The position numbers were made by a program, and so were the translations under genes. DNA of 64,000 nucleotides from Actinostola sp. cb2023 (taxonomy: Eukaryota; Cnidaria; Anthozoa; Actiniaria; Actinostolidae), in the NCBI GenBank assembly GCA_033675265.1, contig JAUJYZ010000191.1, positions 170,823 through 234,822 on the forward strand, written 5' to 3'. Shown here one piece after another: positions 16,894 to 47,644 of the stretch (positions are counted from its first letter, which is position 1; every line of letters starts with the position of its first letter). The notes beneath the pieces were generated by a model. The model worked only from the letters and a program-made list of their open reading frames with translations. It was not told the DNA's origin and searched no databases.

Positions 16894-17717
16894 TACGGAA
16901 GCCCAGGAGGGCCACTGGTGGGTTTTCGTTTTTGTTTTCGGTTTTTTGCTTTTCATTTTTCGCTTTTTGCTTTTCATTTTTCGCTTTTTGCTTTTCGTTT
17001 TTGTTTTTGTTTTTGTTTTCGGTTTTTTGCTTTTCATTTTTCGCTTTTTGCTTTTCATTTTTCGCTTTTTGCTTTTCGTTTTGGTTTTGGTTTTTGTTTT
17101 TGTTTTCGGTTTTTTGCTTTTCACTTTTCGCTTTTTGCTTTTCGTTTTTGTTTTTGTTTTCGGTTTTTTGCTTTTCATTTTTCGCTTTTTGCTTTTCATT
17201 TTTCGCTTTTTGCTTTTCATTTTTCGTTTTTTGCTTTTCAATTTTCGCTTTTTGATTTTGGTTTTGGTTTTGGTTTTGGGGATTTGGTTTTTGTTTTTGT
17301 TTTTGTTTTCGGTTTTTTGCTTTTCATTTTTCGCGTTTTGCTTTTCATTTTGGTTTTTGTTTTTGTTTTCGGTTTTTTGCTTTTCATTTTTTGCTTTTCG
17401 GTTTTTTGTTGTTGTTGTTGTTGTTGTTGTTGTTTTTTTTTTGTTTTTTTTTGTTTAACCCAAAAGACAAAAGCAAAAACCAAAACCGAAAAGACAAAAG
17501 CAAAAACCAAAACGACGAAACCAAAAACCAAAAAGACAAAAACAAAAAGCAAAAAGACAAAAACAAAAACAAAAAGACAAAAGCAAAAAGCAAAAAGACA
17601 AAAACAAAAACCAAAAAGGCAAAAACAAAAACCAAAACCATGAGTGGCCCTCCTGGGCCGGTCCATGGTGCCTTGCGAGCCACGTGATGAACAAACATGG
17701 CGGACGGCTTCGTGTTG
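16894..17717 (+). repeat. Left terminal inverted repeat, ~824 bp
   Basis: Starts TACGGAAGCCCAGGAGGG and ends at CGGCTTCGTGTTGT, matching the complement of 46826-47644 throughout. The outer 560 bp are T-rich tandem words (CTTTTTGC, TTTTCATTTTTCG, TTTTTGTTTTTG). The inner ~190 bp are A-rich (AAAAGACAAAAACAAAAAGC). CCCAGGAGGGCCACT near the outer end is inverted as AGTGGCCCTCCTGGG at 17644-17659, so each TIR is itself a foldback. A GC-rich ~60-bp inner segment ends with ACATGGCGGACGG. Confidence 0.9.
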
Positions 17718-17836
17718 TGAAGTCAAGTTCAAACGTTTGCCCCTAAAAGGTATGAACGTACGTATTTAATTAAGTTCATATGTAGCGAAGCTATACTAAC
17801 AATCCTCTATCCTCTATCCTCTATGTTAGTTTTGAA

Positions 17837-18100
17837 ATGGAATCCAAACATGTCTATATTGGTGATGTTACCCCAGGTAAAAATGTGCTCTAGTCTGTTG
17901 TAGCATAGTAAGCTTAAGCTTATATATTCAGTTAAATATATTTATCTATACAGTGTCACGAATATAACTTATTGTATTCTTCTAACACATCATTTGCAGA
18001 ACTACAAATTTCATTGGTGGACATGGTAAAGAAAAACAAAACGAATGAAATCATTGTAGATTATGCATTTGATGCACGATTTGGGGACAAAAACTTTTAG
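17837..18100 (+). CDS. Possible small two-exon gene of unknown function
   Basis: Exons 17837-17876 and 18000-18100 (GT/AG borders, matching phase) give 46 residues starting MESKHVYIGDVTP and ending DARFGDKNF with TAG. It begins about 120 bp inside the left TIR and reads inward, so the TIR could act as its promoter. No family was recognised. It could equally be a terminal fragment of a decayed gene or chance. Confidence 0.3.
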
Positions 18101-18870
18101 GGTAAAGATTGTTACACGTAACAAGGTGTAACTCGGTAACTCGGCCCAGTCCATACTCGTCAAAACACGTCCAGACCAACCTCGTTTCAAACATCTTGCT
18201 GTTTGGCATTGGATCTGTCGTTGTTTGGCGTTGGATCGAAGTAATCACGTCAATAGATTCTTGTATCAATATTTTGGTACATTGTATAACTATTTTGGGA
18301 TGCCATACTAGTAATTTACGAGCAGCAGCGAAGATCAACACAAGGTAAACGAATTATTTTTATTTGTCTTGTCAGTTCAAGTTTTCCTTCAATTTTGTGA
18401 GGTATCATTTCTACAATTTCAGAACCTTAGAACTCGATTTCAGTGTAATGACGTCTCTTTGGAGGAAAAGCATTGTTTATATGAGATTTTTTCAAAGTTG
18501 TAAGCTTTCATACATTTGTATTTATACTTATAATACATCGAATACTTATAATACATCGATTGGCCATATCATGGAGGTACGTAAAATAGCTTTACTACTA
18601 TCAACCAGATAATTAAAATGTAAGCTTACGAATTATTGTAGACAAGAGAGACTGAAAGTACCCTGGGTGCCAGGAGTTTATCGTTCTCGCTCCAGGAGTC
18701 GCCTATATTAAACTCATACATAGGTCCCTCGGCACCTACAAACTTTGATTTCGGCCTTTGCAAATTTGTCTCTGCATGTTTGCCTTGCAATGTTTTCGCC
18801 TCGAAAATGACAAGCACAATGATACTAACTTTAGAACCTCTGCCTCTGGAGCCCAGGGCAGAATGATTTT
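18101..18870. other. Between left-end ORF and transposase stop
   Basis: No gene recognised. Positions 18625-18850 read like ordinary dispersed repeat; no paired ends found. Confidence 0.4.
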
Positions 18871-21800
18871 TCAGGTTTTCTTGCCGTGTACCTTAGGTAA
18901 AACGGGTTTTTTATTATGTTTATAGCAAAGTACAGTGTACTTATTTCTCCTTCTCACCATGCGGTGGAGATAGAACATGTGATGTATTTTAGGCATTGCA
19001 CATAGGATCTTTTTGTATCTGGAAAGCCAAACAAATGTTTGTTCTGCGGCCATGGTGTTGCCCTCTGGGATATCCTCTTTCAGCTTGGATGGATTATACT
19101 TTATTTTGCACTCTTTGTCCTTATGATTCTTCAAATGAAGACAATCAATTATTTTATTGATCGATTGCCAGGCTTTGTTCCATGGTGATGGCCATGGCAA
19201 ATCTTTTCGACATATTTTCATACCATCTAAATGGCACATATTATCATATGAAAGGAAAATCTTGCTCCAATTGAAAGGATTCAAACTCTTCAAAATAGTG
19301 AAGAGCCAAGTCAGAACTATCAAGAACACCTGAGAGGGACTTTCAGACCTAAACAAGGAACAAAGAAATATTGAATAAGAAATTAATGAAATTTGATACA
19401 TGCATCTGTTCTATTATCTCCATTCATACATGTCTGATATACAGTCATTTGCAAAAATTCTGGCCGCTACGAAATATCAATATATCAATATATTGGGTGC
19501 ATTATGGGTAATTAAATAATCGAAAATTCCCCTTAAAGCGGGTTAACGCTTGGATTAGTGATGCACCCAATATATTGATATATCGTGGCGGCCAGAAATT
19601 TTGCAAATGACTGTTAATGTAATAATAATAATATTATATTTTGACTATTATGTTGTTATATAATGTTAATAACACTTTATTAAAACTTACTTGTAAAGAG
19701 GACTCCACTTGTCTATGAAACCCCCACCCCTTACAATAAACAGGTGACCTCTCGACCATTTTTGAAGTCTGGCTTTTGCACCTGTATCCTTATTACAGGT
19801 TGTGGGATTTGGTTCTGTACAGTCACCAAGTACATTATTTACTTCATCCTGCTGGTTCTCTATGAACTCAGTATTACCTAGATTACAAAAAGGGATAATG
19901 TTTAAGTTTTTCATTTCTTGTTTCTATAAAATAAGGATGACATTTACACTATGAACCATAGCGTGAATATCTAAAATACCCCCAGAATATGTTTACTGTA
20001 TTGTAAAAAATTGTAACCACAGTACTTAACAGAACAACTTTGAATCTTTGAATCTCATTTCAATATACAACCTGTCTAAGAAGCACCCAATATGTCTTGT
20101 TTCAAAACTAGCATTAATAAGATATAGCTTAGAAAAAAATAGCTTTTAAAAACTGGACATGTGTAGATTGTCTGATTGATGTCCACTTACTTTCCAATCA
20201 GACAATATGTTCGTCACAATTCATTAAAAGTGTGTGTGTGTGTGTGTGTGGGGGGGGGGGGGGAGGTTGTGTGTGTGTGTGTGTGTGGCGGGGGGGGGGG
20301 GGGGGGGGGGGGTTAGGGTGGGTTGTAAAAAACTTTGCGATGGTCTGCCAGTAGAGTACATACACATGCTTAATTTTGTGTATAAAAGGATCTCACCTTG
20401 GGACTCAACTGCACTTTTCCCAGCTGATGTCTCACTTTCAATAACTCGCAACACCTTCTCAATGGCAGCAATTTCTTTCTCCTCCACAGTTGGGTCGTCA
20501 TCAGCTGAAGTCGCTGAACTATTGTCTGGGTTACTTGTTACTACGTGGTATTCAATAGAAAAGAATGTCAAATATTCATTTGTATATTTTTAATTTACTT
20601 TACATGTTTTTCATCAGCAGAAAATAAGGTGATCTTCCATTTTGTGCTAATCAACATCCATAACTGTATTGTTGTTTTGTGCTAATCAACATCCATAACT
20701 GTATTGTTGTAGAGGTTTTAAATTGACCTTGACTTGCTCTACCTACCTACCTACCTACCTACCTACCTACCTACCTACCTACCTACCTACCTACCTACCT
20801 ACCTACCTACCTACCTACCTACCTACCTACCTACCTACCTACCTACCTACCTACCTACCTACCTACCTACCTACCTACCTACCTACCTACCTACCTACCT
20901 ACCTACCTACCTAGAGTTAATATTGATACAATCTAATGGTCAATGTGTAATAATCAAATGAAAACAAAATAACACAATGGAATTAGGATGTACCATTGTG
21001 TATTAGACTAATATCTATTTCACAGGTTAAATAAAATCACTCTACCTACCTACCTATTTAGAGAAGGTAATTTAGAAAAGCGTAAAATAGTACTAACTTT
21101 AAATAGTGTAATTTCTATTGTTTCATAAGTGCTAATTAGATATTTAGTATTCACGCTTTTCTAGTGAATTGCACTCTACTGGACATCACTGTAGATTGAC
21201 AAATGGCATATGTTCTATTTTACCTGCCTGGACACCACAGTATTTTAAAAATCCCCTCAAGTCTGTTGGTACTTTTGGATGTTTTTTCGTAAGGTAAGCA
21301 TTGTGCTCTGTGCAAAATGCTCTGCCTGGTTCTGGTGACAGTACACAGACATTTGGGTAATTCAGAAGAGGTAGCCCCTTGACGATATTCTGTTAAAAAG
21401 TGTAAAAAAAAAGAAATGAATATTTAGGGTATATGTGATCAGTTCCCATGCATACCCATGTATGTCCCATGTATGTTTCAATAAATATGTAAAACTACTA
21501 CTATACCTTGCGGTGCATCATACAATGAGCAAAGTTTAGCTTCCACTGCCCATCCACAACCCAAAGTCTTCCACAACCTACAAATGATATCATCAATCGT
21601 TTTAATGTCTCAGACCATGCAGGCACCATCATCTGTAACTATAACCAAGTGGGGACATAAAGAACCACTGAGGATTTACAAACAAACCCTGGCCTTGCAT
21701 GGCCATAATTGTCCGATGGATATGAAAGTAATAGTTTATTTCCCCCCACTTTTGCAGATGTCTCATTTAGCACTAGCTATTAATAAAATATTGTGACATA

Positions 21801-23812
21801 CCACGTCTCTTGCACAGATCAGAGCATTCTTCCGAGGGGTGATTGTATATAGTTTTTGATCTCAGTGAGTCCATATGGTCCATCACTTTCTCTCTGTCTG
21901 GGTTTCTTTTATACATACTAAACAGGTCTAGTTGTCTAATCTCCCGAGCTTCATTTTCTACTTCCCCATTCCAGAATCCAGAGGCTGCCTGTTTTTCTGT
22001 ATACTCACGATCTGCACAATATGATAGCAACACAAAATAAAGAAACATAAGATTATTTTGATGATAACGTTATATTTATATTATAATTATTTTAAAAATT
22101 GCATAACTTGAATATTTTTGTGCTGTTGTTGGTGGTGGTCAGGTGGAGGAGGTCGTTTGTATTCATTCGTTTTTTGATCTCGATAAAAGGTTCCTAATTT
22201 GCAGCAGTAGGGGATCCCCCCAGTGATAACGTATCAACGACAAAAGCTACCAGAATGTTACCTTTTTCATTTGAAATAAGTCCAAAAGCATCGTTAAATG
22301 CAGTTGAAAACCCAACAAAACTGACCCAACAATGGTTCCTGAAAATAATTATTCGATCGTTAATTAAACTCCGTATATACCTATTTCGAAAAAGGTTGTG
22401 GGAGAGAAATAGATGGGAGAATGGTCATATTCATGATCATGACTGGGGAAATGAGTAATGGAAATAGAGGTGAAAGTTGAAGGAAAATTTGAAAAGAATG
22501 TGTATTAAGCTGTTCTTTTACTGCGGTTCTCAGTATTATGCGAACTCGGACATTCAACAGTCGGCTGGAAGTTGGTTTTTCGCTGCCGTCAATCAAATTC
22601 AAAACTCAAACAAATTCAAAACTAAATACATTCTTCGACCAAATGATCCATAATTTAGCTCAAAATCATTAAGCTATTTGGTTTCCATTTAGTGGGTCTT
22701 CTGACTTTTATTTTTAAGTTTGCTAATTTTTATGTTGATAATTGACGGCAGCGAAAAACCAAGTTCGCATAATTACTGAGAATCGCAGTAAATATTTGTT
22801 GGGAAATTTACTTACGCCAATGAACAATGAAATTCGAACATTTGTCGAGAGAGATAACACGTGTCTGTGGCCTCTACATATGGACGTTGGTGCTCATAAA
22901 GTGACCATCCCGCTTGTGCCGTGCCATACTTGTCGTAATTATGGGAAGTTGCACATGCCTGACAACGTAATAATAATAATAAATTCTTAAAAACGCATAT
23001 ATATAACTGACTAACCTAACTAAAAACGCATATAAACTAACTAACCTGGCAACGTAAGGTCATCTTGTATCCTGGCACATGGCCGTTCAACGTATAAACG
23101 TCTACGTTTGTCTGATGGTGCACTGACAAAGAACTTAGACACTTTTGGCATACTTTCGTCGGAGGGCTAAGGACTATCAGGTTTCCTTCTGGGCTTTTAG
23201 GCGAGGGAAGACCAGTAAGGAGGGTCAGAGCCTGAAAACAAATATTAATACAAAGTGCTTTATATAGGCCATGTTCAAAGGAGAACGCAAGTCGATGCAA
23301 GTAAGCTTAATTTCATTGATCAGATGTCATTGTGCTCGGTTGCGCAAGTTTTTAGAAAACTTTGACGAAAATCATCCCGATCAAAGGAAAAGGAGAAAGG
23401 CTACTTTTCTTTGATTTACTTTGAGTAGAAAGGACATTTGACCAGTATGAAAACCGAGAAAAATAAACTTGCGAAGACTTTCGCAATAAGCTTAACTGAC
23501 CTTGTTCACCATTGATTCATCTTGTTCTTTTAGATCAAGGGTTTTCACTAGTTGCTTTACCAATTTAGCAGTTATGACCGTGGTGCATTGAACTATCTCT
23601 CTCAGTTTGATGACTACAGAAAGGCCAAGCTGTGAGACCAGCCAACTCTCGACGGCACGTGTCGAGTCCGCAGCAGCATTGATGTCGAAGTCATCTTCTA
23701 AAGTACAGCGCTCAAATTCACGATATGTACTCTGAAAAGCTACCTCATCCTCCACAGAAGACTTTAAACTGTCTATAAAATCGTTCACGCTGACTTTTTT
23801 GCGTTTTGACAT
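18871..23812 (-). CDS. KDZ-like DDE transposase with CxC zinc ribbon, 657 aa
   Basis: Ten exons, in order of transcription: 23501-23812, 23046-23231, 22816-22958, 22262-22338, 21802-22011, 21507-21577, 21224-21389, 20397-20540, 19691-19877, 18871-19348. All have GT/AG borders, the phases are consistent, and the 657-codon frame has no stop. Two CxxC pairs (C132-C135 and C165-C168) form a zinc ribbon like the cysteine clusters of KDZ transposases. Candidate catalytic residues are D318 (LWVVDGQWK), D534 (LSYDNMCH) and E601 ([11 protein letters not shown]), followed by RRRNKYT. This order and spacing fit the Kyakuja-Dileera-Zisupton superfamily. Expected role: nuclear cut-and-paste transposition at the TIRs. 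The start is the first ATG, with an acidic N-terminus. Introns hold MITEs and microsatellites, but coding sequence looks undamaged. Confidence 0.85.
19441..19614. mobile_element. MITE family B (ACAGTCATTTGCAAAAATTC ends), copy 1
   Basis: Ends ACAGTCATTTGCAAAAATTC, then TGGCCGC, inverted at 19,614. Lies in the last intron of the transposase. Core ATATATCAATATATTGGGTG is shared with family A. Confidence 0.85.
20229..20314. repeat. GT and poly-G tract in transposase intron
   Basis: (GT)n, G runs of 11-22 and again (GT)n. It lies just past a transposase splice donor. Confidence 0.95.
20739..20913. repeat. CTAC tetranucleotide tract, ~44 units
   Basis: Uninterrupted CTAC repeats in a transposase intron; small degraded runs recur at 21040-21053. 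Confidence 0.98.
21059..21178. mobile_element. Small MITE (AATTTAGAAAAGCG ends)
   Basis: AATTTAGAAAAGCGT is inverted as ACGCTTTTCTAGTGAATT; interior has AATAGTACTAA. Relative of 32047-32191 and 40061-40204. Confidence 0.65.
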
Positions 23813-25089
23813 TTTTTCAAAGCTAAAGAAACTGATTTTAAAATTATTCCGTCTCTGGCGACTCTGGCAAGTTGCCGGTTTGCTACACGTACGTGACCCC
23901 CATGCAGGGGGAGATACTCAGGGGTTTGAAATTAGCGGCTTGGGACTTTTTGGGTTATAAATTTTCTGGTGGCCTTTTTTTGATAGAAATGATTTTGGCA
24001 AGGACTTTTTGGGGGTTTGATAAAAATGATATCCTAACCATTCTCGATTTTATATAAAACGATTTAATTTATGCATCAGAAATGTTATTGTTTATATTAT
24101 CAGAAAACCAGTTTGTAGTATAAAGTCCATAGTCTGCCTAATGTTTTGTGACAGATGTACGATGAACAAATAAAAGTGGACGCATAAACTATCTCGCATT
24201 CTCTTGGTGTTTTTACTTTATTTTTTTTATGCGGAGAAAAAATTGAGTTTTTGGGGTTATGTTCTGGGCCGTTGGACTTTTTGGGGATCTTGTTTTTGCG
24301 TAATGGACTTTTTGGGGGTTAAAAAGTTAGGCCTCATTCGCAATGAGCACTGTACTATCACTATTACTAGTGGGGCGGATCTAGAATTTTGAAATGGGGT
24401 TCCCGCATGGTCATCCGTAAATTTTTGATTTCTAAGCCTCTGAAAAAAGCTCAGGCCGACTGAAACGCCATTTCCTGCACTTTGCAGCCGTTCTGTTTCG
24501 GGATCCTTGTGCTCCCTCGAGCATTTATATGAGTGCTTATAAATCGATTTCATTCTACTGTTTTGAGCGACAAAATCGAAGGACTAAGGGGGGGCTCCCA
24601 CGGTATCAAAAGACATAGTGCCCAGGACCCATGTATGACCTCACCAAATGCACATCAAAAATCATAGCAAAAATATGCAACAGCCAACACATCAGCCAAG
24701 GAAATATTTTATTGCATACTGTATACTGGGATATACTTTATAAAATAATATGCCTGACAAAGTAACCCAATGGCCCGACCAAAACAAAAAAAAAGACTTT
24801 CAGAATGGCAATCACTACCTGGAACTGACTTACATGTACATGTAAGTAAGGTAATAATATTATCGGTCAAACATTGATTGTTGAAAGGGAATAGTATTTT
24901 GAACCTACAGTTAGCTAGCACATATAAAATAAACTGTAAATACAACCATTCAGATCTCCTCTACTAGTCGTGGCAATTAATTACCAAAATATAAACTGAT
25001 CATGTCAGTATCGTACAGTATATATATATACGTACAGTGGACATGCACTCATATTAACACATGTCAATAGATGTAGTTCATTACAGTTG
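23813..25089. other. Spacer between transposase start and ATPase stop
   Basis: Presumed transposase promoter. The words GACTTTTTGGG and TTTTTGGGG recur at 23945-24015 and 24245-24320, hinting at a decayed tandem or inverted repeat. No gene recognised. Confidence 0.45.
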
Positions 25090-25958
25090 TCATGTCCTCT
25101 TCTTCATGCTTTTCTTGCATGTGGGGCAGTACCTAGGAATGCAAATAAATAGATGTTATTGGCTGATGACATCTAGTTAGCACACAATGTTTTGCTTTGT
25201 ATTTTAAGAAGTTCAAGTTAATAATTTAGGACTCATTTGACATGCATTTTGGGGGGTTTTGTGATGCCATATCCAGGATAGAAGAATCTAGACAATCGAT
25301 ACTTACCAAGGATTTGCCTTAGGAACAGACTGAAGATTGAGACACTTAAGATGAAAATACCTATTTCCCGGACACTGAAATTAAAAATGAAAATTTGTGA
25401 CAACTTTGGGGAATTGAATAGATTAATTATAATGTAATAATACAGTATTTAGTAATGTTGTTGCATTCCCATTGCATAAATATGAGCCTGACATTACCTT
25501 TTCTTTTTTCCCCTTGTTCTCGCAGATTACCATGGTGTTTTCTTCCTCTTCAGTAGGTTTTCTCTGCAAAGATTAAGTTACAAACTAGGGTCATATCACA
25601 GTGATTATATATATAGGTAAAGGGGTTGAAGGTATGAGTCATGATCCGATCAAAAAAGGCTTGTAGCATGTGCAAATTAAGATTCAGCTGTAGATGTGAT
25701 TTGTGATTTATGATTTATAAAATATATAGAAAATATGTTACAAATTTTTTTCAAATAATTTTCTTTAATATTAATCCAATCCAATACCTGCTTGCAGAGA
25801 CAATACTTGTAAACTTGCTTTTCTGTTATCAGATAAAAGGAAAACATATTAGTGATTACTTTATTACTTTACTTTACTTTACACTTAACTTTACGTTACT
25901 TTACTAAAATACTTTACTAAACACACTTTACTTTACTTTACTTACTTTACACTTTACT

Positions 25959-26150
25959 TTGCTTTCCTTTGCAATGCTTTGCTTTGCTTTGCTTTGCTTT
26001 GCTTTGCTATGCTATGCTTTCTTTGCTTTGCTTTGCTTTGCTTTGCTTTGCTTTGCTTTGCTTTGCTTTGCTTTGCTTTGCTTTGCTTTGCTTTGCTTTG
26101 CTTTGCTTTGCTTTGCTTTGCTTTGCTTTGCTTTGCTTTCCTTTGCTTTA
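25959..26150. repeat. CTTTG pentanucleotide tract
   Basis: About 35 TTTGC/CTTTG units in an ATPase intron, preceded by TTACTTTAC words at 25865-25955. Confidence 0.97.
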
Positions 26151-26557
26151 CTTAATATACTAACCTTTACTTCTCCTAATTTTTCCATGCTGATGATCTG
26201 CTAGTGGATGCTGCCTTTTTCTGCTTGTTGTCCTTCTTGTTGTACATGTACTGGCTATGTCCAATTCTCCATACTCTACTGTGAAAATGATGCAATTCGG
26301 CTTATTGATATTAAGATCACGATATAATGTACATGTCTGCAACAAAACTTAGACTTGTTCAAGTCATATGTCTCCAAGAATGCCTCCATAAAGGAATTCA
26401 TTTATTGTCATTCACAAATTATGTAGAAATATTTTCAAGGTTGCAGGACTCCTTCAATCTTCAATTATTTAAAGACCATGACTGAGGTCGACAATTTAAA
26501 AAAAGGTCACACAACATTTATTTACCTTCTAAAGAAATTCCACTATCATCTAATGCA

Positions 26558-29052
26558 AGTTCATCTTGGCTGAAGTCATCTGGAGTCTGGGTATTACTAG
26601 CATCTTGCATTTGGCTGAAGTCATCTGGAGTCTGAGTCTGGGTATTACTAGCATCTTGCATTTGGCTGAAGTCATCTGGAGTCTGAGTCTGGGTATTACC
26701 CTTGCGAAATAAACCTTGGAATTCCTAGGAATTCCTAGGATAATCCTAGGAATTCCTAGGATTTTGTTCCTAGGAATTCCTAGGAATTCCTAAGAATTCC
26801 TAGGAATAATGGTGTGAATTTTCACGGTAATTCGGACTCGGAATTCCTAGGAATTCCTAGGAATTCCAAACATAAAAATATCAGCTTTGGAATTCCTAGG
26901 AATTCCTAGGAATTCCAAATCTCTACCAGTGATTCAATCTGGTCCCAACATTCCTAGGAATTCCTAGGAATTCCTAGGAATACTTGGGAATTCTTAGGAA
27001 TAAATGGGAATTTGTTCTTAATACATATAAAAAAAGCTAGAAACCAGTGATTAAAAGCAGAAATTTAATGTGAATTAATTTCCCTGCATGTATAAATATA
27101 TTTTCATTGACATAAAAAATACAATAAAATTATTAGAAGGCATTCACTTGGATTCAATGCTATCGAAATCACTTTTTGAATTATTTTGTACAGACTGATG
27201 TCAGTTCTCTTAGCTTTTTGTTGACCTCTTGACTATAATGTCCACCACCGGCCATAATGACTTTATTGGATTTGTTATGCTTCATTCTATTGAAGAAAAA
27301 CATAAAAGTTTTAAAGCATATCATCATAATCTACCAGAGAATATTGTTAGTTGTTATGGAAGGATCACAGGAAAGCTCAATAACTTAATATTGATCAGTG
27401 CATACAGTACATTCATTAATAACTGAAAGCACTCAGAACTGAAATACGATGTAAGAATACTTCTATACAACGTAGTTTCTTGAGCTGTGTAAGCTAATGT
27501 AGATTCAGGTATTAAAAACCACTGTTCAAATCTCTTTCAGTGAGTATTTAAGTATAAAGTTAAAAATCATTGCTGTTGAACTCTCGACTGGTTCATTTGC
27601 GAAATTAATACTTAATCGGCATTCATAATCAGAGAAAAACAGTCTTAATATGTTCTGTTGTAAGCAAAGTATTTCAACAAAGTATTGGTTTGTTCATTAT
27701 CTAAGAATACTTTGATCTGATCTACTGTAAATCAGGCCGTTTTGGCTACATTTGAATGGGTATAGAATCGAATCTTACCTTGTGAATTCAGCACAATTTC
27801 TTGTATTTCACCGCATATTTGTCAAGAAATAACACTCTGCAACACATGTCAATTGTTCCATGTCGTTCTCCAGGGATTTAGTAGAAGAAAAGAGTGATTA
27901 TTCGACTAATAGTTTCCACTACACGTTTATGTTAACGTTTCTCAAGCGAAGAATAACAACATGGCGGGTCACAAGAATTCAAAACCGTGTCAGTAGCCAA
28001 TCAGAGTGAAGCTATGCAGGATATATGCTCCAAATATGGAGCTTGGAACTAGACTCCCTCGGCCATACAAAGTTGCTGTGAAATTTCCTAAGTGTCTCGT
28101 CAGGCGTTTTTCGTAGCAAAAATAAAGGCAAACTTTTCAAATTGAAAAATAACAAACTTCAAAGGAGAATTTGAATTTAATCAGCTAAGATGATTCTTTG
28201 AAAATCATGAAATATATTTTGACTGCCGGACATTTTTTTAAATACGGTATTTTGAAGACTTGTAGCGGGCTTATTAAATGCGCTTGTAGACATCCCTAAG
28301 AATTATAAAAACCAATTCTCAAAAGTTTTCTTTTCAGTCTTTGAATTATTGGCCATGGGTTATTCCTAAGAATTCCTAACAATTCTCAGTTGGTTTTAGA
28401 GCATTCTCAAAAATTCCCAGCAATTCCAAGGTTTTCAGTTCAACCTAATTTGCATGTCTTGGAATTATTTGGAATTCCTAGGAATTCCAAACAATTCCAA
28501 GTTGGTGTGAAAGCATTCTCAAAAATTCCCAGCAATTCCAAGGTTTTCAGTTCAATCTAATTTGCATGACTTGCAATTATTTGGAATTCCTAGGAATTCC
28601 TAGGAATTCCTAGGAATTCCAAGGTTTCTGGGAATCCATTTCGCAAGGGTACTAGCATCTTGCATTTGGCTGAAGTCATCTGGAGTCTGAGTCTGGGTAT
28701 TACTAGCATCTTGCATTTGGCTGAAGTCATCTGGAGTCTGAGTCTGGGTATTACTAGCATCTTGCATTTGGCTGAAGTCATCTGGAGTCTGAGTCTGGGT
28801 ATTACTAGCATCTTGCATTTGGCTGAAGTCATCTGGAGTCTGAGTCTGGGTATTACTAGCATCTTGCATTTGGCTGAAGTTATCTGGAGTCTGAGTCTGG
28901 GTATTACTAGCATCTTGCATTTGGCTGAAGTTATCTGGAGTCTGAGTCTGGGTATTACTAGCATCTTGCATTTGGCTGAAGTTATCTGGAGTCTGAGTCT
29001 GGGTATTACTAGCATCTTGCATTTGGCTGAAGTCATCTTGAGTGTTTGGTTT
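26558..29052 (-). repeat. 51-bp coding tandem repeat of the ATPase gene
   Basis: About ten in-frame copies of a 51-bp unit encode the 17-residue repeat DDFSQMQDASNTQTQTP. Eight lie at 28652-29040 and the rest at 26560-26698, beyond the inserted element. Some units read DN in place of DD. Confidence 0.93.
26699..28649. mobile_element. 1.95-kb TA-flanked element with AATTCCTAGG palindrome arrays
   Basis: Inverted ends CCCTTGCGAAAT / ATTTCGCAAGGG are flanked by TA on both sides (26697-26698 and 28650-28651), exactly inside a 51-bp coding repeat. Arrays of the palindrome GGAATTCCTAGGAATTCC fill 26714-27000 and 28480-28620; the middle is AT-rich and non-coding. It looks like a non-autonomous TA-targeting DNA transposon. 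Confidence 0.85.
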
Positions 29053-35577: not shown

Positions 35578-35706
35578 ATCAGGATTTACCTGCACGAGTT
35601 CAATGAACGAGAAATTTAAATACTGCACGAGGCGTAGCCGAGTGTAGTATGAGAAAATTTTGAGTTCATTGTTAGTGAACGAGTGAAGGTAAAATCCTGA
35701 TAACTC
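35578..35706. mobile_element. Small palindromic repeat in integrase intron
   Basis: TATCAGGATTTACCTGCACG is inverted, with mismatches, as AAGGTAAAATCCTGATAA. No duplication defined. Confidence 0.5.
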
Positions 35707-36576: not shown

Positions 36577-36719
36577 TTAAATGCCCAAAGGCATTAACAA
36601 TCAAAAATATATTTTCTTTTTTTAATAACACACAAGAGGATTGAAGCATACTGGCACAATTTACGTGAGCACAACTCCTCATACTGGGAGACAACATTTG
36701 AGGTACATTTTGTGTATAT

Positions 36720-37005
36720 ACAGCTATTTCAAAAAACGTTGATACTGAATACTGTTTCTAAATGGGAAAAACTAAGTAGCACTCATCTATTGTTTTTTAT
36801 GTGTTATTCATTATATTTTTATGAATATATTACATCAACTGTGCTACGTAGCAACACCCGATTCTAAATAACTGTATTCCAAGACCGAAATGCATTTTGG
36901 GACTCGTGTAATATTGTCTAAAGTAATATAAATAATAATAATTTATTTTTAGTGTATTCCATCAGAATACACTATTCAGTTTTCAACGTTTTTTGAAATA
37001 GCTGT
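36720..37005. mobile_element. MITE family C (ACAGCTATTTCAAAAAACG ends)
   Basis: Inverted ends ACAGCTATTTCAAAAAACGTTGA flanked by TA, in an integrase intron. Relatives: 43378-43501 and 54436-54707. Confidence 0.85.
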
Positions 37006-37458
37006 ATACATTAAATTAATTATGTTTTATTGACAATTTTATAATGTTGTGTGTCCCTCTGAATGGAGTACCAGTGATATATTTTTGACAATTTGAGCAC
37101 AAATCTAGATCTCTATCTTGAGACAAATGGTGTTTTTTAAATCACAGGCTCTTGTTGCCGAGGGGCTGCTTGTTAAAGATGATCCACTGCACAAGTAGGT
37201 CTCCTTAAAAACCCACCATACATGTATAAGTTTTTTACTAAATAATTGTGATAATGTTCATTCCGATACTTTTTTGTAGGGCATGTTTACAGTATGTTTA
37301 TATGCCTCTGTTAAGAAAAGAAATGGACAACTTTGTAGAGGAACACAACTGCCACAGGATACGCAAGCAGCGGGGAAGGCAAACACCCCAAGGCATACCT
37401 GAAGATCTTTATTACTTCCCAGAACGTGCAGGTTTTTATTTTTTATTCCTCTGAAGGA

Positions 37459-37617
37459 ATGGTCAATTCTCAGCACGTGTCCATCGAGTTATGGATGCAC
37501 ACAGGAGGCTGCTAAGCACAAGAAAAGTTTAAGTACGCCTCGTGCGACTGTAGCTTCTTAGCAGCCCACCAAGTGCATCCATAACTCAATGGACTCGCAG
37601 CTGAAGCGTTGACCATT
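37459..37617. mobile_element. Palindromic MITE in integrase intron
   Basis: AATGGTCAA... CGAGTTATGGATGCAC is inverted at 37573-37617; centre has GCTGCTAAG/CTTAGCAGC. Confidence 0.75.
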
Positions 37618-37756
37618 TCTTTTATAACAGTCACTGCAAATTCAAATAAAGCAATATTATTTCCCAAATGATTTCAGAGAGCGCGCTATGCCAATGACGC
37701 CAGCATTCGTCCATTGAGTTATGGATGCACGCTAATTAGCCAATCAGAGCTGTGTT

Positions 37757-38044
37757 ATATATAGCTAATTGCATAATCGTTGTTGGGTTGAAAATCATGA
37801 AAGCTATGACCAAAAGGAATTCTGGGAAATTAAAACTCTCAAATAACACCGTCAAATCATCGACCATTTTGTCCAGACTTGTAGGATCTTAGTTAAATAG
37901 CTCATATATTTTCAAAACTACGAGAACATTGAATATATCTGCATGTAATGTGGCTCATGGACTGATTTCCCATCCATCCCTGCGGTCTCAGCTTCTATGA
38001 TTTATGATTTTCAACCTGACAACGATTATGCAATTAGCTATATG
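37757..38044. mobile_element. MITE (TAGCTAATTGCATAATCG ends)
   Basis: Arms of about 45 bp, inverted; the same family as the fragment at the start of the window. Confidence 0.75.
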
Positions 38045-39286
38045 CATTATATCAATGCTATAAAATTATTTTCGTTACTCCCAGAACCTCAGAAAATAAA
38101 AAAATAAAAAAAGAACATGAAATGCTGATACTAAGTGTACAATTATTATTATTGTACAAGGTTGGCAGAATATTACGATTATTTAATTACTAAGTTGCCA
38201 ATTGATGCAGAAGGCATATATTCACAATATTTTGCTCAACCTCTTCTAATAATAATCTTATTGTTTTATCGTTCATATTATTTTCTCTTGCTGAAGCAAC
38301 GATCCTGGAAATTGAACTGCCATTGTCGAGGAGAACCAAACTGCATTTCAGCAGAGCATTATTCATAGAACATTATTTGCAGTGATGTAGTTGGCAGTAG
38401 TTGACCAATGAAAATCATGGAGAGAATAATGTGAAAGATCATTGCAATGATTGTCAACCAAAACATATTAGAGCATAATGGATCATTAGGACTCAGGCTC
38501 TGGGACTAGGACGTTGTTGTTTTTACATTTATTCCGTCATCATTCTGTACTTTTGCAATAAAATGTTCTTCTAGAAATGGATGGATTCCTATATTTTTAT
38601 TAGGGAATAACATGATGCAACAACTTAGCTCCATTCTCAGATTTAACGGCTGGGTGGTAACACAGGTAGCCTGGCCCCTAATGTTCCATTAGGGCTTTAA
38701 TTTTTTTTTTCTAAAATCAAATGTGTACTTTCTCATTTATAAGGTTTTAAAGAAGCTGGCTTTGTTCCAGAAAAAGATGACATTGAATACTTAGGTTGTC
38801 ATCATGGTTTGGAACATGATTTGCCGACATACTTCTTGCCTGAATTGCAAGACATCGCAGGAAATGTTTTGCAGAATATTACAGTGGACAATGCCAAGCA
38901 AGACTACAAAACACTTTTATCCCATTTAGAAGCTTATATCCAAAGGGACATGGCATAACATAACAATTTATTACAAATGTTAGAATATGGTCTAGCCACA
39001 CCCACTTAGCAAATCAGCACCAAGTATCTTAGTTTTCTATATTCCATAGTGTCACATGGAGGCAAGTGGCATGAAGTACTATATAAATACAGTATGTAAA
39101 AAGGTACATGGATACCAAGTGGCATGAAGTACTATATAAATACAGTATGTAAAAAGGTACATGGCATGTATCCAAAGGTACAAAAGTTACATGTATGGAT
39201 CAGCTAGGGTAGTTCTCAAAGACAGAAGGTACTTTTTGGAATTTCATTTTGCTCTACTGAAACAAAAATAATACATGTAAAGGTTT

Positions 39287-39292
39287 AATAAA
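39287..39292 (+). terminator. Possible polyadenylation signal of the integrase gene
   Basis: AATAAA about 330 bp after the integrase stop, and 15 bp from the convergent alpha-kinase stop codon. Confidence 0.4.
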
Positions 39293-39306
39293 AAGTTGTG
39301 ATTGTG

Positions 39307-42300
39307 TTACAGTACTGAACATGTTAAAGCACACAACTCACCTGGTGCAAATGCTTTCAGTTTTAACATTTGGCATATCTTGTTGCATGTATGGTTGGTT
39401 CTGAATTTTGTGATTGCCTCACTGCCCACATTTCCAATTCCAAAGTACCTGGTAAAATATTGTGTTAATGAGCTGAAGATAAATGTCAAATTGTGATTCT
39501 ACTAGGGGTATCGAATGGTCACGGCGAGACTTTGCGAGACTCCGATACAAGGCATATTTTTGCGAGCCCAAGACGTTTCACCGATTTCCTTTGTTTTCAA
39601 AATTCGAGACAGACAGTTTTTTTGTGAAAAAACGAGACTTCCAGATGTGCGAAATTTGACCGAAATTTTGCGAGACTGACCATTCGACACCCCTTCTACT
39701 TGATAGCCACATACCCCTTTTCCAGTGTTGCTACTTCAACATCTGTCAAAGTTAAACCCACACCTATAACAACAAATGTGAACATTATTGGCTACATTGC
39801 ATTTATAAAACTTCGGCTCATATAGTGTATCTATACCACCAATACAACACAGTCTCTCGTTTTATAAATACATAAATTTATATACTGCATATATTGAAAT
39901 TATTGATATACTTTTGTATTTTATATAATACACCTGTTTTCAAAAACGTCCATTTACAAAATAGTAAAAAGGAATTAATTAGAGATAAAAGAAATGCACT
40001 TGAGCTGAACTGTGGCTCATTGTTTCTCTAATTAATCCCTTTTTACTATTTCGTATTTTGTAGAGTGCAAACCATATGTCCGTGAACCAGTACTAACTAA
40101 TAGTACTAAATAGCACTGATGAAACAATAGAAAACAATAGAGATAACACTATTTAGTGCTATTTAGTAATAGTACTATTTCACGGACATATGGTTTGCAC
40201 TCTAAATGGACAACGTTTTTGAAAACAGGTGTATACCGTATATAGCTATATTTAATTAGTATTAGATGAATGTGACTATTTTATATGTTTATTTATTTAT
40301 ATCTTGTTTTATTTAGGGCCTAGATGAAAATTACCACACCTGTAATTCTAGTTACCCTCTGTAAAGAAAGTGTTATTATTATTATTTTACCTTGTAAATC
40401 TGTCAGCAGCAACTTGCCCTCGTTGTATTCCAATGACCAATGCGCCAAGGCCAAGCACACATGGCCATCATCTGTGGACAAACCTGTTTCAGTGGCAATA
40501 CCACTGTTGTTGAGGTATTTTACATATCGCCCTTCCAGTTTTTTCTCCATCATCAGCACTTCTTTGTCAGTTGGATTTACCAGTAGGAAACAGGATATGA
40601 CCCTGGAAGAGTTATAACTAGCTGTTGAATATTGCAAGTGAAGTGCTGCAAGGCTATTATTCTCTACTTTCTCATAGCACATAATGCTTTGCGCCTTGGG
40701 GGGTAATACAAAAGAAAATCGGAGCTTAGAGTGCAGACATTAAAACCGTGAAACAGTGCCAACTTTAACCATGTAATAATTTTATTATGCAAAACCATTT
40801 TCTTCTGCAAAGCACAAGGATAGAATATACATTTTATAATATACATTCAGAATTATCTGATTGGCTGTTTCCTGTGTTTGCATCAGGCTGTGCAGACATG
40901 GCGTTTCGTTGGTGCTATTTAGCACTACCTAGTTTGTACTGTTTCACGGTTTTAGTGTTTGCACTATGCTTCAGTACAAGGGTAATATAGCATTTGCATA
41001 TTTAACAGATAGAAGGCGAAGTCGAGCCTTCTATCGGCAGATAGTTGGCAAGGGGCGCTAGCCCTGAGTCAACTATCAGAGCCGATAGAAGGTGAGAGTG
41101 AGCCTTCTATCTGTTTTAGAATACCACAACTGACTACATGTATCTATAAAACATATTTTCATGTGTGTTTTCATTTTTTATTGATCATGAATATTCAAAT
41201 TTTAAACTGCTATAGTAGGCAGTTGTGGTATTCTAAAAGGTACTATACATGTAAAAGTACTTACTCAGGTAAATTGACATTGCATGCATGTTTATTTGCA
41301 CATAACGTAAACTGTCTTACAATGTGTTGGACCACCATTTGTGTCTGGACTTCCTACAAGAATAATAACAATAAAAAGTAATGAATAATTTATGGATTAT
41401 CCACACATTGCTTCCCTGTTCTTTTTACTCTGACTTCCTCTGGAAAAACTTTGTTCTACATGTACAAATGGTGTTATTTCATATTGTTCTTTCATAACTA
41501 GGCATACATGCATCGTACATCTTTTAGTTTTCTCCCACCTTCATTGCTAAACCTTGGATGTTCTTCCCTTTTTCTTTTGCTTGCTCTTGGACTTCGTTTG
41601 TGTATTTTTTTATGACAACAGTGTCATTCACTTTGAAGCCTCTCAAATGGGGATTTGCATTTTTTATGGCCAGTGTTGCATTAAAGGCACTTCTCATTCC
41701 ACCTGTGCTGAATGGAACAAGTTCTCTGTCTTGCAGTGATATGAGTCCCAGTGAAGGCCAATTTTTTGAAGTCACATCAAAGGTTAAAACCTTGAAAACC
41801 TCATCTATCATGTACACATGCAAGAAAAGAAAATTCATGTGTGCACATACAATTTGAGACTTTTGGTTGAAAGGGGTATTATAGTGAACAAGGATGATTA
41901 CTAACTTTATAATAATAAGCTTTATTTTGTTCACTCACACTGTACTCACTACACCACTACATTCTAATATTCTATGCACACAACTCTCAGCTCACTCGTT
42001 CAGATCTCTTGGCAACTTTTACAAAATAACGAATACCAATTATTAACTGCTAATGAAATCAATGCACAGTACATACCATCATTAAATATTTGAAATGGAT
42101 AGATACTTCTGCCAGCCTCTAACAGTTCACTCTTGGTTATGGAACAAGATATTTCTAATCAATTTGAACAAATGATATGAATTGAGTAATCAGAATAGTT
42201 CAAAACTTTTGAAAAGGGTCCCACCTGCTATGCTGCTGGCCACCTCGTTTTTGCAATCATGCTGAACTTGAGCCACACTGAGAATTTGTTGAGGCTCAGA

Positions 42301-45300
42301 ACTATGTGTGGATGATGTACAATGATGCTTGCTTGACTGTTTCATACTTTAATCAAACATTAATTCACATTAACCATTTTGGACTAATATTTTTAAGTGT
42401 AAATGTAGTTTTGAGTGATTGTGAACATCAATACCTTCTCATGGATGATGGTGGTGGTTCGGACATGCTGTCTTCCTCACTGCTAACGACAGAGTCCTCA
42501 TGTTCAGATCTCTACAACACATGAAAATATATTTTAGTTATTTACAATTTAGTTATTGTCTAGTGAATTCAATACTCTATAAACACAATAATATTTAATA
42601 ATAACAATAATAACAACAACAACAACAACAACTTTATTTAGGTGTCAAAATAAACAATAATATTGTAGAGATGTAATAGTGATGGCACTTAACCTGTGAA
42701 ACAGATTATCAGCCATGTACATCTGTAGATATTAATAAACTGTAAAAATGCCATTGTTTTCTTTTGTTTTGATTTGACTACATGTACATGTATTAGTCAC
42801 TAATTAAGGTAGAACAGAACAATAGCAGACCCAGACTTGTTCATGATACTCCAGATTGTACTTCCACCCATGACAAGGAAGGTCCCATACTAGACGCCTT
42901 CAAAAACATTACAGACATGTACATTGTACATGTAGTACATACATGTATATGTATATGTATAGATGCATTATGTGTTGTTTATAGTAAAATGAAGAGCAAA
43001 GAAAGTCTGCAATTGGCATACAATTATTGTACCTCTTCATAGCAACATGAAAATGATGTCTTGTTGTGTGTAAACGAGGGGTCGGTCACAATAGCTTTAC
43101 CGTCAAGGAGGTACAGCACTAACCCCTGGTTTACACTGTCTTGGTAGTCTTCCTCCTTGATGTTGAGAAATGTTGAAGCACATGCCTTCAGTACATTTTC
43201 TATAGTTGTATGTTTACCAAATGTTACCTGAAAGAAAAGGCAAAATAAAGTATGTAACATTATTTGTTATTATCATTGTTATATGCATATATTATATACA
43301 GTAAGTGGGAAATAATGGCCAAAGCATAAATTTGTGCCATGTAAGCTGTGATGATGTGAAAAAAAAATTATACATGTACCTATTTCAAAACACGTTGACA
43401 ACGGTCAATCTGAATTGGAAGATCGGAATCTTTCGAAAATTCTGAAAATTCACATCATCCATTTCAGATCGCCCGTTGTCAACGTTTATTGAAATAGGTG
43501 TACAGCGATTTGCAAAAATTCTGTAAAAATCAATATCGATCGATATATCAATATATCGGGTGCATTGTGGGTAATTTGCATCATAAAATGGCTGAATAAG
43601 CCCTCTAAAGTTTTTTTTTTCCAATTGTTTTTTCACATACACACTACAAAGGTTAATTGGGTTTAGATTCAGGTTTAATAATAGCTAAAAAAACAAAGAA
43701 TTAGGATTATGCAAATTACTATATATCGATGTATTAAATTTCACAGAATTTTTGCAAATCGCTGTATGTAAGCAATGATCAATAAATAAATAAATAAGGA
43801 CTAGCCAGTTAGGGCAATCATGTTTATTTTTAAAACCTGGGTTTGATCTCCAACATCATGGTACGTCTTCTTCTTGCCTTTTCTTAACATTTTCTTTTCT
43901 TTAAGTTGTATCTTTATAGTCTATTATTAAATAAAATGTATTAAAAACATGTTATGCAATTATTGCACACTGACCATTACTATAATTGAGAAATTTTTAC
44001 CTTTCTAAAATTTGCCTCATTTTGGGCTGTCTTGGGACCTTTTCCCTTCTTGGAGCTTCGACCAGCAGAAGAACTACACTGAATCTTACGTTTCAGCTTG
44101 TGCTGGTCGATCATGCCTTGAAAACCTAAAGACATGAAATGCAAGACTACATGTAAACTTTCTGAAATTATTAATTACCTGTAAACAACACTACTTGACT
44201 TACTTTTTGCCTTCTCTCCTGCACTTCCCAGACCAAACTGGACATTCCTATGGGCTGTAGATATTATTTGTTAAATAATTTAGAAATCACTTGGTGGAAT
44301 AGTTCCCATCCACTAACAAGACTGTGGATTGATTGACCACAATAGGCGACTTGCACTAAGAGGTCACGTGACCCTAACTCCCATAAATCGAACAGCAGTG
44401 TCAAAATGAACTCCAGAAATGAAAAGAGCAGCTCGAAATTGGTAAAGGGCGAAGTTTCAGCTCATAATGTCTGACACAGGAGAAATGACATTAAAAATAT
44501 TATCAATCGTTTTCTAAGATTTTGTTTGGAAAATGCATTCGATTTATGGGAGTTAGGGTCACGTGACCTCTTAGTGCAAGTCTTATAAACTTTCTGAAAT
44601 TATGAATTACCTGTAACCACTGCACTGCTTGTACATGAAGTTGACTTCCTCCCACCAAACTGGACATTTCTACCCAGCTGGAGATTCCTGTTGGCTGTAA
44701 ATAATAATGACATGTATTTGTTGAAGAATTAAAAATCACTTGGTGGAATTTATCAGTTCCCACTAACATGAAACAGTAGAACCCCACTAATTGGAACTAA
44801 TTTTATTTTCCCTTGGGAGTTCGAGATAGCAGGGTTCTACTGTAAACTGTGTATCGATTGTGATTCCCCAGTGTAACCAATCAATAAAATCATGGATTTT
44901 AATATTGACCAGTTAGCACATTTAAATGTAGCCTGATTTTCAGACAGCTCATGTGTCATATGCTCTCGCTTCCTCCCCAATCCCCATCTGATTGCCCTTG
45001 TAGGAAGTCATGTTCTGCTAGTGTTTGAATTCCGACCAATCAGAGCGAACCTTTTAGTTTTCTCAAAGTGAGGTACATGTATGCAAAGAATTTGCACCTA
45101 AATGACAGACGATTAACACGCTAGGTTTTTATGAGCCAGATTTAGTAGCTTAGTGAAGAAAAGGGAAGAAATCAGCCTGATTTCAAATGAAATACATGGA
45201 TGTTGTACGTTCAGATATACAGTCATTTGCAAAAATTATGGCCGCCATGATATATCAATATATCGGGTGCATTATGGGTAATTGAATAATACTTTTTGAG

Positions 45301-46456
45301 ATTCCTAACTTATTAAATGAAGCAAAATTTACAAACAAGAAACGTAAGACTAAAATAAACATTATACCACATATTTCTACCAACTTTGCTGGCGTTAACC
45401 AGCTTTTAGGGGAATTTTCTATTATTTAATTACCCATAATGCACCCGATATATTGATATATTGATATTTCGTAGCGGCCAGAAATTTTGCAAATGACTGT
45501 ATACATTGTATATATTGTTATGGAGCCAAAGGTGCTCGGGGCTGGATTCTTGTTCTGAGAGAAGGTCAACTCAACGGGTCAACAAATCGAAGCATGTATT
45601 AACTCCCGTCCATACAAGTGATTTCATTGGCTCCTGAAGAAACAGAGGATCATGACCCCAGAGGTGGGGGGAGGGGGGATCATGGGGGTACTCCCCTATG
45701 TATGCTATAAACGGGTATGTGTCGCGGGATAGGGTATGGAAAATTGAATATTTAGGTCTGGAATAGGGTCAGGGTTTTGAGGTGTCCGCGGCACATCCCT
45801 ACCCAAAAATTCCCAGAGTACCACCACCCCCCCTCCCCCCGGGATCATGACATCAAGAACATGACTTCCTACGAGGGCAAATCAGACAGGGATTGGGGAG
45901 GAAGCGAGAGCATATGACACATGAGCCGTCTGGAAATCAGGCTAGTTAGCACACAGTGTCCTTTGATTCAAGGTTAGCTAATAAAAGCTAATAAGTATTA
46001 TCTGAGCATCCATTATAACAGTACCTTCAACAGATGTTCTTCCCATGCCTTTGTGGTCAACTGCCAGATGGCCACAAGAATAACAATCATTAGTCCCGGA
46101 CACACTTATATACTCCAGGCACTGACAAGCCAGAGAACCAATGCATCCTGTCTTGGGCTCCTGTATTTTAGAACAAACACAGTACTATGATTACTATTCT
46201 AGATACCTACAAATATTAAAATTATCTCAATTAACTTAAGTATACCTACATGTTTTGAAGAGGGGCAAGCACAGTTTCTACAATTGTTCGACTCCTTCTG
46301 TTCATCGTAGGAGACGCACGAGCAATTGTTGCACTTTCCACGTGTAACACCCTTGTGATCCACTGTTAAAAGGAAAATCACAATTGTCAAACAATGGAAG
46401 TCTTACACAAACCGACATATACACTTACCTTGAAATGGAAGTGTGTTTTGTTCCAT
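39307..46456 (-). CDS. Alpha-kinase with N-terminal CxC cysteine clusters, 573 aa
   Basis: Fifteen exons, in order: 46429-46456, 46250-46362, 46025-46160, 44611-44694, 44204-44254, 44001-44125, 43033-43227, 42435-42511, 42225-42301, 42077-42154, 41539-41804, 41265-41353, 40391-40602, 39715-39763, 39307-39448. Phases all agree and no stop interrupts. Residues 10-85 hold two Cys clusters (C20, C23, C25, C37, C40, C42, H47; then C53, C59, C61, C73, C76). Residues 322-573 fit the atypical alpha-kinase fold: PFSTGGMR (352-359), candidate ATP Lys K387, LLLTDLQG with D508 and Q510, D518, GIGNVG (530-535), and the structural zinc ligands H494, H546, C548 and C552. It should phosphorylate Ser/Thr; the target is unknown. 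The last exon could instead splice at a GTGAGT near 39337. Confidence 0.82.
39504..39694. mobile_element. MITE with 6-bp duplication in kinase intron
   Basis: AGGGGTATCGAATGGTCA / TGACCATTCGACACCCCT ends with direct repeats TCTACT at 39498-39503 and 39695-39700; interior repeats GCGAGAC. Confidence 0.85.
39930..40232. mobile_element. MITE (ACACCTGTTTTCAAAAACG ends) carrying a nested MITE
   Basis: Inverted ends ACACCTGTTTTCAAAAACGT. Inside, 40061-40204 is a second inverted element (TAGAGTGCAAACCATATGTC ends). Confidence 0.8.
40061..40204. mobile_element. Nested MITE (TAGAGTGCAAACCATATGTC ends)
   Basis: Arms of about 25 bp; interior TAGTACTAAATAG words, shared with 32047-32191. Confidence 0.8.
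40728..40967. mobile_element. MITE in kinase intron (AGAGTGCAGACATTAAAACCG ends)
   Basis: Imperfect inverted ends containing AAAACCGTGAAACAGT / ACTGTTTCACGGTTTT. Confidence 0.65.
41000..41240. repeat. Palindromic clusters in kinase intron
   Basis: GATAGAAGGCGAAG... CCTTCTATC words repeat at 41008-41105; ATACCACAACTG at 41122 is inverted near 41225. Confidence 0.55.
43378..43501. mobile_element. MITE family C relative, abutting family A copy
   Basis: ACCTATTTCAAAACACGTTGA ... inverted GAAATAGGTGT. Its right end touches the next MITE, which starts at 43502. Confidence 0.75.
43502..43765. mobile_element. MITE family A, copy 3
   Basis: ACAGCGATTTGCAAAAATTC ends; interior TCAATATATCGGGTGCATTG; kinase intron. 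Confidence 0.85.
44348..44582. mobile_element. Foldback MITE with ~45-bp near-perfect ends
   Basis: GACTTGCACTAAGAGGTCAC... inverted at 44538-44582, in a kinase intron. Confidence 0.85.
45220..45500. mobile_element. MITE family B, copy 2
   Basis: ACAGTCATTTGCAAAAATTA ... GGCCGCC ends, inverted at 45500; core GGGTGCATTATGGGTAATT on both sides. Confidence 0.85.
45662..45842. mobile_element. MITE with GGGGGAGGGG ends
   Basis: GTGGGGGGAGGGGGGATCATG ends inverted as CCCCCCTCCCCCCGGGATCATG; shares TACTCCC, GGGTAT and GGCAC words with 58835-59555. Confidence 0.65.
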
Positions 46457-46825
46457 TTGTCTACAACTAGGGACGCAACTAAGTACTGCAACAAGTTCTG
46501 AGCACTACACAGTAACTAAAGCTAACACGAGGCACGAAGGTAGCTGAAGGTGTTGGTGTGTTTTCTCGCGATCAAATTAAAATTGTTTATTAACTACATT
46601 GTAGTCTGTAGAGTAAGCTAACTTATTAAGTCTCACACCAAGTTACATAAAACTTACCTGTGTTTCCTGAGTACTTACGTGCATGAATATCGATGAAGAG
46701 TTATGAAATGATAACAGGACATTCATTAACCAGATTGAGTTAGCCATAATCTTCTAGTATTACCCTGCGAGCAGAGGTTTTTCGCAGGGTACACATTCAT
46801 CAGTAATCGAATAGAAATCCGAGAT

Positions 46826-47644
46826 ACAGCACGAAGCCGTCCGCCATGTTTGTTCATCACGTGGCTCGCAAGGCACCATGGACCGGCCCAGGAGGGCCAC
46901 TCATGGTTTTGGTTTTTTGTTTTTGCCTTTTTGGTTTTTGTTTTTGTCTTTTTGCTTTTTGCTTTTGTCTTTTTGTTTTTTGTTTTTGTCTTTTTGCTTT
47001 TTGTTTTTGTCTTTTTGGTTTTTGGTTTCGTCGTTTTGGTTTTTGCTTTTGTCTTTTCGGTTTTGGTTTTTGCTTTTGTCTTTTGGGTTAAACAAAAAAA
47101 AAAAAAAAAAAACAACAACAACAACAACAACAACAACATAAAAAACCGAAAAGCAAAAAATGAAAAGCAAAAAACCGAAAACAAAAACAAAAACCAAAAT
47201 GAAAAGCAAAACGCGAAAAATGAAAAGCAAAAAACCGAAAACAAAAACAAAAACAAAAACCAAATCCCCAAAACCAAAACCAAAACCAAAAGCAAAAAGC
47301 GAAAAAAAATGAAAAGCAAAAAACGAAAAATGAAAAGCAAAAAGCGAAAAATGAAAAGCAAAAAGCGAAAAATGAAAAGCAAAAAACCGAAAACAAAAAC
47401 AAAAACGAAAAGCAAAAAGCGAAAAGTGAAAAGCAAAAAACCGAAAACAAAAACCAAAACCAAAACCAAAACGAAAAGCAAAAAGCGAAAAATGAAAAGC
47501 AAAAAGCGAAAAATGAAAAGCAAAAAACCGAAAACAAAAACAAAAACCAAAAAGCGAAAAATGAAAAGCAAAAAGCGAAAAATGAAAAGCAAAAAACCGA
47601 AAACAAAAACGAAAACCCACCAGTGGCCCTCCTGGGCTTCCGTA
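46826..47644 (-). repeat. Right terminal inverted repeat, ~819 bp
   Basis: Reverse complement of the left TIR, differing by small repeat-number changes and scattered bases. The inner edge is ACAGCACGAAGCCGTCCGCC and the outer edge ends GGGCTTCCGTA. On the minus strand an ATG (ATGGCGGACGG) opens a 15-codon frame running out of the TIR. Confidence 0.9.

Follow-up and report, generated by a model that had tools for sequence, protein, structure and literature searches.

The window, as we call the whole stretch analysed here, comprises 64,000 nucleotides of the actiniarian Actinostola sp. cb2023 (GenBank assembly GCA_033675265.1, contig JAUJYZ010000191.1), and holds at its centre a unit of 30,751 bp in which four multi-exon genes, here lettered A to D, lie between long inverted ends. 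These terminal inverted repeats (TIRs), at 16894-17718 on the forward strand and 46826-47644 on the reverse, align at 97.1% over 832 columns with 4 mismatches and 20 gaps, and share an identical tip, TACGGAAGCCCAGG. Directly abutting them on the outer side are two copies of GGAATG (16888-16893 and 47645-47650), the 6-bp target site duplication left where an IS3EU transposon landed. An earlier sequence-only reading had recognised the 0.82-kb ends, their tips and GGAATG, had rightly concluded that TIRs enclose a unit whose one pre-insertion site can be read, and had named the four gene types correctly. Here, we describe these genes and the copies found elsewhere in the genome, and then consider why the unit is better read as two elements, one nested within the other, than as the single four-gene 30.75-kb transposon which that reading had proposed.

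The outer genes, C and D, are convergent. Gene C, the IS3EU transposase gene on the forward strand, lies in two parts, namely exon 1 with the start of exon 2 at 17837-18065, which was placed by collinearity with a related copy (L039) and has an approximate start, and the integrase-core exons at 34186-38958. Scanned on the undisturbed copy on contig C859, the integrase core matches PF24764 (rva_4) with an E of 1.8e-24, and rve PF00665 reaches only 0.013, below the family cut-off. Gene D, on the reverse strand at 39342-46684 with outermost exons that are uncertain, encodes a cysteine-rich N-terminus and an alpha-kinase (PF02816, E 1.4e-34), which may regulate the transposase or host factors; the gene finder merged it with gene B, and the two were split by hand. 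In another copy, C1482a, the predicted alpha-kinase departs from the window's frame.

Between the two parts of gene C lie genes A and B, both on the reverse strand. Gene A (18871-23812; 10 exons, an open model of 645 aa) is, judged from its predicted protein, a metazoan CxC5-KDZ transposase: its CxC cysteine cluster matches PF18718 (E 4.7e-11), and its 12 homologs include proteins from Oculina, Montipora, Patiria, Acanthaster, Mytilus, Amphimedon and Halichondria. The KDZ domain model PF18758 leaves gene A itself unmatched; it matches 20 other places in the genome and three of seven aligned or related proteins (P0004, P0010 and P0011, E 5.2e-8 to 5.9e-6; P0001, P0003, P0006 and P0012 are unmatched). 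The motifs DG.WKL, YD..C and EQ.F, kept in a seven-sequence alignment with gene A, are what we take to be the DDE triad, with D318, D522 and E589 as the candidate residues. Gene B (25090-34041) encodes in order the motifs GTNRLGKS and VIDD, which by eye are presumably Walker A and Walker B, then a repeat-rich linker whose exons are uncertain, and finally a C-terminal PHD finger. The P-loop motif falls in the exon at 31126-31495 and the PHD finger in exons between 25822 and 25090, the latter matching PF00628 (E 1e-4) at 22.7 bits, just below the 24-bit cut-off, with all eight ligands present. One intron of gene B contains a repeat of about 885 bp (32193-33077) that occurs in at least 30 other places, as counted from the best 40 of 1,517 candidates.

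The outer ends belong to a numerous family. With up to two mismatches allowed, a 23-bp tip, TACGGAAGCCCAGGAGGGCCACT, has 113 occurrences in the assembly of 424 Mb, 55 of them forward and 58 reverse, and its reversed-pattern control has none; it is therefore a real transposon end. Among the matches listed there are 39 convergent TIR pairs, of which 35 span 0.23-6.2 kb, three span 15.1-15.2 kb and only the window's spans 30,751 bp; the composite thus appears once, with no second copy among these matches to indicate that it moves as one piece. A perfect 6-bp duplication flanks 24 of the 25 pairs taken from these 39 and checked, the window included, so that the other TIR copies stand alone with duplications of their own. 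Counted as distinct insertions, with the copies C859, C1482a and C1482b taken as one, the figure is 22 of 23. The exception is an IS3EU-tipped pair (L056) whose flanks have just 4 bp in common.

The three pairs of 15.1-15.2 kb (L039/L040, L041/L042 and L043/L044) show what the outer element looks like when undisturbed. They match window positions 16893-18065 and 34186-47644 and are without 18066-34185. Where the TIR sequence is of low complexity they are about 96-98% identical to the window, and over 34186-47616 the identity is 99.2-99.8%; they carry the integrase and alpha-kinase genes and lack the KDZ and ATPase genes. Since flank and duplication are common to all three, we count them as one insertion, present as an inverted duplicate on C1482 (L041-L044) and again on C859 (L039-L040), probably as haplotigs or through inverted duplication. 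A further copy, L048, reduced to 2.97 kb by internal deletion, lies at another site with the duplication ctaaat and has the same junction of 18065 to 34186; copies without the inner insert are found on C859/C1482 and C1466.

At this junction L039, L042, L043 and L048 each have a single AGATTATG. The window has two exact copies of this 8-bp repeat, which the sequence-only reading did not mention, at 18058-18065 within exon 2 of gene C and at 34186-34193, flanking genes A and B and separated by 16,120 bp. In the gene models of L039 and L043 the transposase exon 2 is continuous across the junction, which means that the insert interrupts coding sequence, and insert-free copies with one AGATTATG indicate that a 14.62-kb element was invaded, in exon 2 of its transposase gene, by one of 16.12 kb (18066-34185). 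Sequence of the inner element also occurs apart from the outer one. Contig C1263 matches it at 100% identity over 1,224 bp, beginning exactly at 18066 in different flanking DNA, with no further inner-element sequence in the 20.1 kb read there. Contig C1489 holds a collinear copy, 85-97% alike outside tandem repeats, in which parts of the KDZ gene (residues 3-389) and the ATPase gene (residues 1-339) keep the order and strand of the window, 21086-22117 is repeated, and stops interrupt the pieces. No outer-element sequence was detected in the stretches of C1263 and C1489 examined. We therefore hold it very likely that the window is a nest, in which a 14.62-kb IS3EU element is interrupted by a 16.12-kb CxC5-KDZ element that carries a KDZ transposase and a P-loop/PHD protein.

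Several observations weigh against the nest, or at least against its exact outline. The inner right end, which reads ...TCATTGGTATA in the window, is seen in one insertion only, as the C1489 copy departs from the window some 6 bases short of it; that copy also lacks 18066-21085 and with it the remainder of the KDZ gene. Comparison of the inner element's two ends (blastn, word 7) gave no inverted match, and hence no TIRs were found. In both left flanks known for it the last two letters are TG, so that the duplication may be of 6-8 bp, with 8 bp as the simplest reading. The termini of the inner element are CA..TA. On contig C88, a sequence resembling the left end (L069, 93% over 69 bp) is preceded by TATACC, the first letters of the inverted right end, a possible sign of a related family whose tips are short and inverted. 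Between the exons of gene A lies a short inverted-repeat element (19438-19614), the source of most of the 163 matches to the inner left region (from the best 40 of 2,133 candidates), and a related copy is found at 45392-45503.

The same junction could in principle have arisen in the opposite direction, the four-gene transposon being ancestral and autonomous and the 15-kb and 3-kb copies being deletions by recombination between the AGATTATG repeats. An 8-bp repeat would permit such microhomology deletion, and one GGAATG duplication does enclose the whole unit; yet deletion would have to produce an identical junction in two independent insertions, and to give back an open transposase exon, while C1263 begins at precisely this base amid foreign DNA and C1489 has the inner gene pair but not the outer one. 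Insertion is far better supported than deletion at 18065/34186, and we consider the ancestral four-gene unit very improbable. Least probable is an assembly error joining unrelated elements, which the existence of contig duplicates (C859, C1482 twice, C1033/C1371) might suggest, since an assembly join would not create the exact duplications of 6 and 8 bp at the two junctions. In the searches made, moreover, the four genes are linked at no other locus, and the nest of two elements accounts for the unit that the sequence-only reading had taken as one.

The order of events can be pictured in outline. The IS3EU element inserted at GGAATG, perhaps within a third element, and the KDZ element cut into exon 2 of gene C, duplicating AGATTATG, either before or after the IS3EU element reached GGAATG. 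Both would move by cut-and-paste DDE chemistry. The window's own IS3EU transposase is predicted to be broken twice, first by the inner insert and again in the catalytic exon, where a T run that differs by 2 bp in length from its counterpart in C859 and C1482b breaks the frame, and this element, with its intact TIRs, could still move in trans by the transposase of a sister copy, just as the non-autonomous TIR copies would be mobilised in trans by the IS3EU transposase. A third, outermost element had also been claimed, and is plausible in that a 32-bp inverted repeat (16749-16780 on the forward strand, 49290-49321 on the reverse, 94% alike) encloses the IS3EU element, perhaps as the ends of such an element; its duplication could not be read.

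Genes A and B are also found together elsewhere, a relationship which we examined by searching the genome with P0013 (18 matches), gene A (72 matches, the best 68 of 84 candidates) and the ATPase of contig C1033 (47 matches), and by scoring as linked any A-like KDZ gene and ATPase gene within 20 kb of each other. Five of the 11 distinct ATPase loci are linked (C1307, C1489, C1033, C559 and C727), the C1033 pair, which recurs inverted on C1371, being taken as a duplicate and counted once. When 13 A and 11 ATPase loci are placed at random, none of 20,000 placements reaches five or more linked loci and the maximum is two, in a model that allows neither for old transposons gathering in clusters nor for copies sharing descent. 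The ATPase at C1033, modelled at 958 aa, has the layout of that in the window, with an N-domain, a P-loop part, a repetitive linker and a C-terminal domain, and the two align end to end (563 and 579 residues) at 29%; its C-terminus is weakly Tudor-like (PF21743, E 0.032) where the window's protein has the PHD finger.

If the ATPase-PHD protein is a partner in transposition, it would bind ATP, touch chromatin through its C-terminal reader and steer or license the KDZ transposase; any direct role of this kind is a real possibility, towards which we lean slightly less than away from it. A bolder generalisation, that animal CxC5-KDZ transposons are two-component machines in which a DDE transposase is joined by a hitherto unrecognised P-loop ATPase ending in an exchangeable chromatin reader (PHD in the window, Tudor-like at C1033), is offered tentatively, and we rate it as rather doubtful.

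Much in the same searches tells against these proposals. The five linked loci reduce to three sequence families, because C1307 and C1489 are close relatives, as are C1033 and C727 (their ATPases 94-99% alike in most pieces), leaving C559 by itself. Six of the 11 ATPase loci have no A-like match nearby (C53, two on C555, C1489:7k, C1293 and C206), several of these unlinked loci having stops in their pieces, and no ATPase was detected at eight of the 13 A-like loci (C752, C1014/C430, C414, C449, C219/C649, C444, C708 and C1263). Gene order varies, being on the same strand in the window and on C1489, convergent on C1033 and C727, where in the latter the genes are some 15 kb apart, and divergent on C559, and the termini of the elements on C1033, C559 and C727 could not be located. 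It is by its motifs that the protein is called an ATPase: no family model matches the P-loop of gene B, and its ATPase part has no significant match in Pfam, PHROGs or PDB, where the best E is 0.26 and this match, like those to PDB at 2, 0.31 and 0.85, is taken as chance. The only outside relative found for it is P0013, from a protein search in which the best 8,000 candidates were scored; an AlphaFold2 model of P0013 has a mean pLDDT of 33.6. A search with ATPase residues 110-400 yielded no relative among 2,056 candidates. The unlinked loci and shifting gene order would all be expected if the ATPase-PHD gene were an unrelated host gene or a chance passenger, but linkage in three diverged families, at a frequency which random placement did not approach within the limits of that model, makes this unlikely, though it keeps appreciable weight.

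How do the two elements compare with known systems? IS3EU elements are described as having TA..TA ends and usually 6-bp duplications, with 45 Repbase families as of May 2022 (PMC10045372), and the fungal TET+ IS3EU elements as having 6-bp duplications, TAYGG..CCRTA ends and an oppositely oriented transposase and alpha-kinase (Kojima 2025, PMC12730594). The window's outer element, of the IS3EU/GingerRoot type, shares with these its TACGG..CCGTA ends, which agree with that motif, its 6-bp duplications, TIRs longer than 30 bp, an integrase core and an alpha-kinase facing the transposase. It differs from the fungal elements in its animal host, its 0.82-kb low-complexity TIRs and its length of about 14.6 kb, and the gene models made include no TET/JBP gene. 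It fits IS3EU by all features tested, namely ends, 6-bp duplications and predicted gene layout. As the term already appears in work on the genomes of killifish, aphid, beetle and oyster, an IS3EU element in an animal is in itself no novelty. In the searches made, the four genes were found together nowhere else; the outer pair of IS3EU transposase and alpha-kinase has been published for fungi (PMC12730594). A meeting report (PMC3520738) speaks of Entons and Intons, two fungal groups that descend from En/Spm and IS3EU ancestors and whose transposons have five to six conserved proteins. The claimed four-gene object is no new kind of transposon. Polinton/Maverick elements resemble the unit in their 6-bp duplications, long TIRs, integrase and size, and were rejected, as its models encode an alpha-kinase, a KDZ-type protein and a PHD protein, and none of the models scanned matched a family of polymerases, capsids or proteases, the DNA not having been searched for them specifically.

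The inner element resembles the KDZ group (Zisupton, Dileera and Kyakuja) in its CxC cysteine cluster and putative DDE domain, and differs from it in its CA..TA ends, its 16 kb, the absence of TIRs as searched for above and its extra P-loop/PHD protein. Zisupton and Dileera make 8-bp duplications, and Kyakuja has no TIRs and starts with CA, according to PMC12730594, the main text of which has no mention of ATPase, PHD or CxC. The inner element was rejected as Zisupton proper because no TIRs were found in that blastn comparison, and as Kyakuja proper, with CA..TG ends and 7-bp duplications, for its CA..TA ends. In one cnidarian paper (PMC9926710) 'KDZ transposase' occurs once, and among the papers listed in a search that lay outside subscription papers and Repbase entries we saw none describing a KDZ element of an animal that carries a P-loop ATPase-PHD gene. 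If the ATPase proves to be part of the element, it is a new variant among KDZ elements.

Elsewhere in the window, a repeat of about 835 bp (49405-50237) occurs also within IS3EU-tipped elements on C79, C1054 and C1395, at 97-98%. An open frame at 55554-57200 on the reverse strand matches RING, B-box, filamin and, weakly, NHL, as in a TRIM-like protein, and an unbroken frame at 8807-9748, also on the reverse strand, encodes a rhodopsin-type G protein-coupled receptor (PF00001, E 9.5e-34).

These results remove a false giant transposon and describe an IS3EU element with an alpha-kinase in an animal genome. The perfect identity of the inner copies over 1,224 bp and the near identity of the outer copies suggest recent activity, such that mobility may be testable. 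Transposons of the Tn7 and Mu type pair a DDE transposase with a P-loop ATPase that selects the target, and the likeness to the KDZ element is one of analogy only, given an ATPase part without significant match in the databases searched. If the two-component reading is true, the KDZ element would offer a eukaryotic parallel to the way in which an ATPase guides the choice of target in Tn7 and Mu, and its recurring pair of KDZ transposase and ATPase-reader could account for the choice of chromatin by a eukaryotic DDE transposon.

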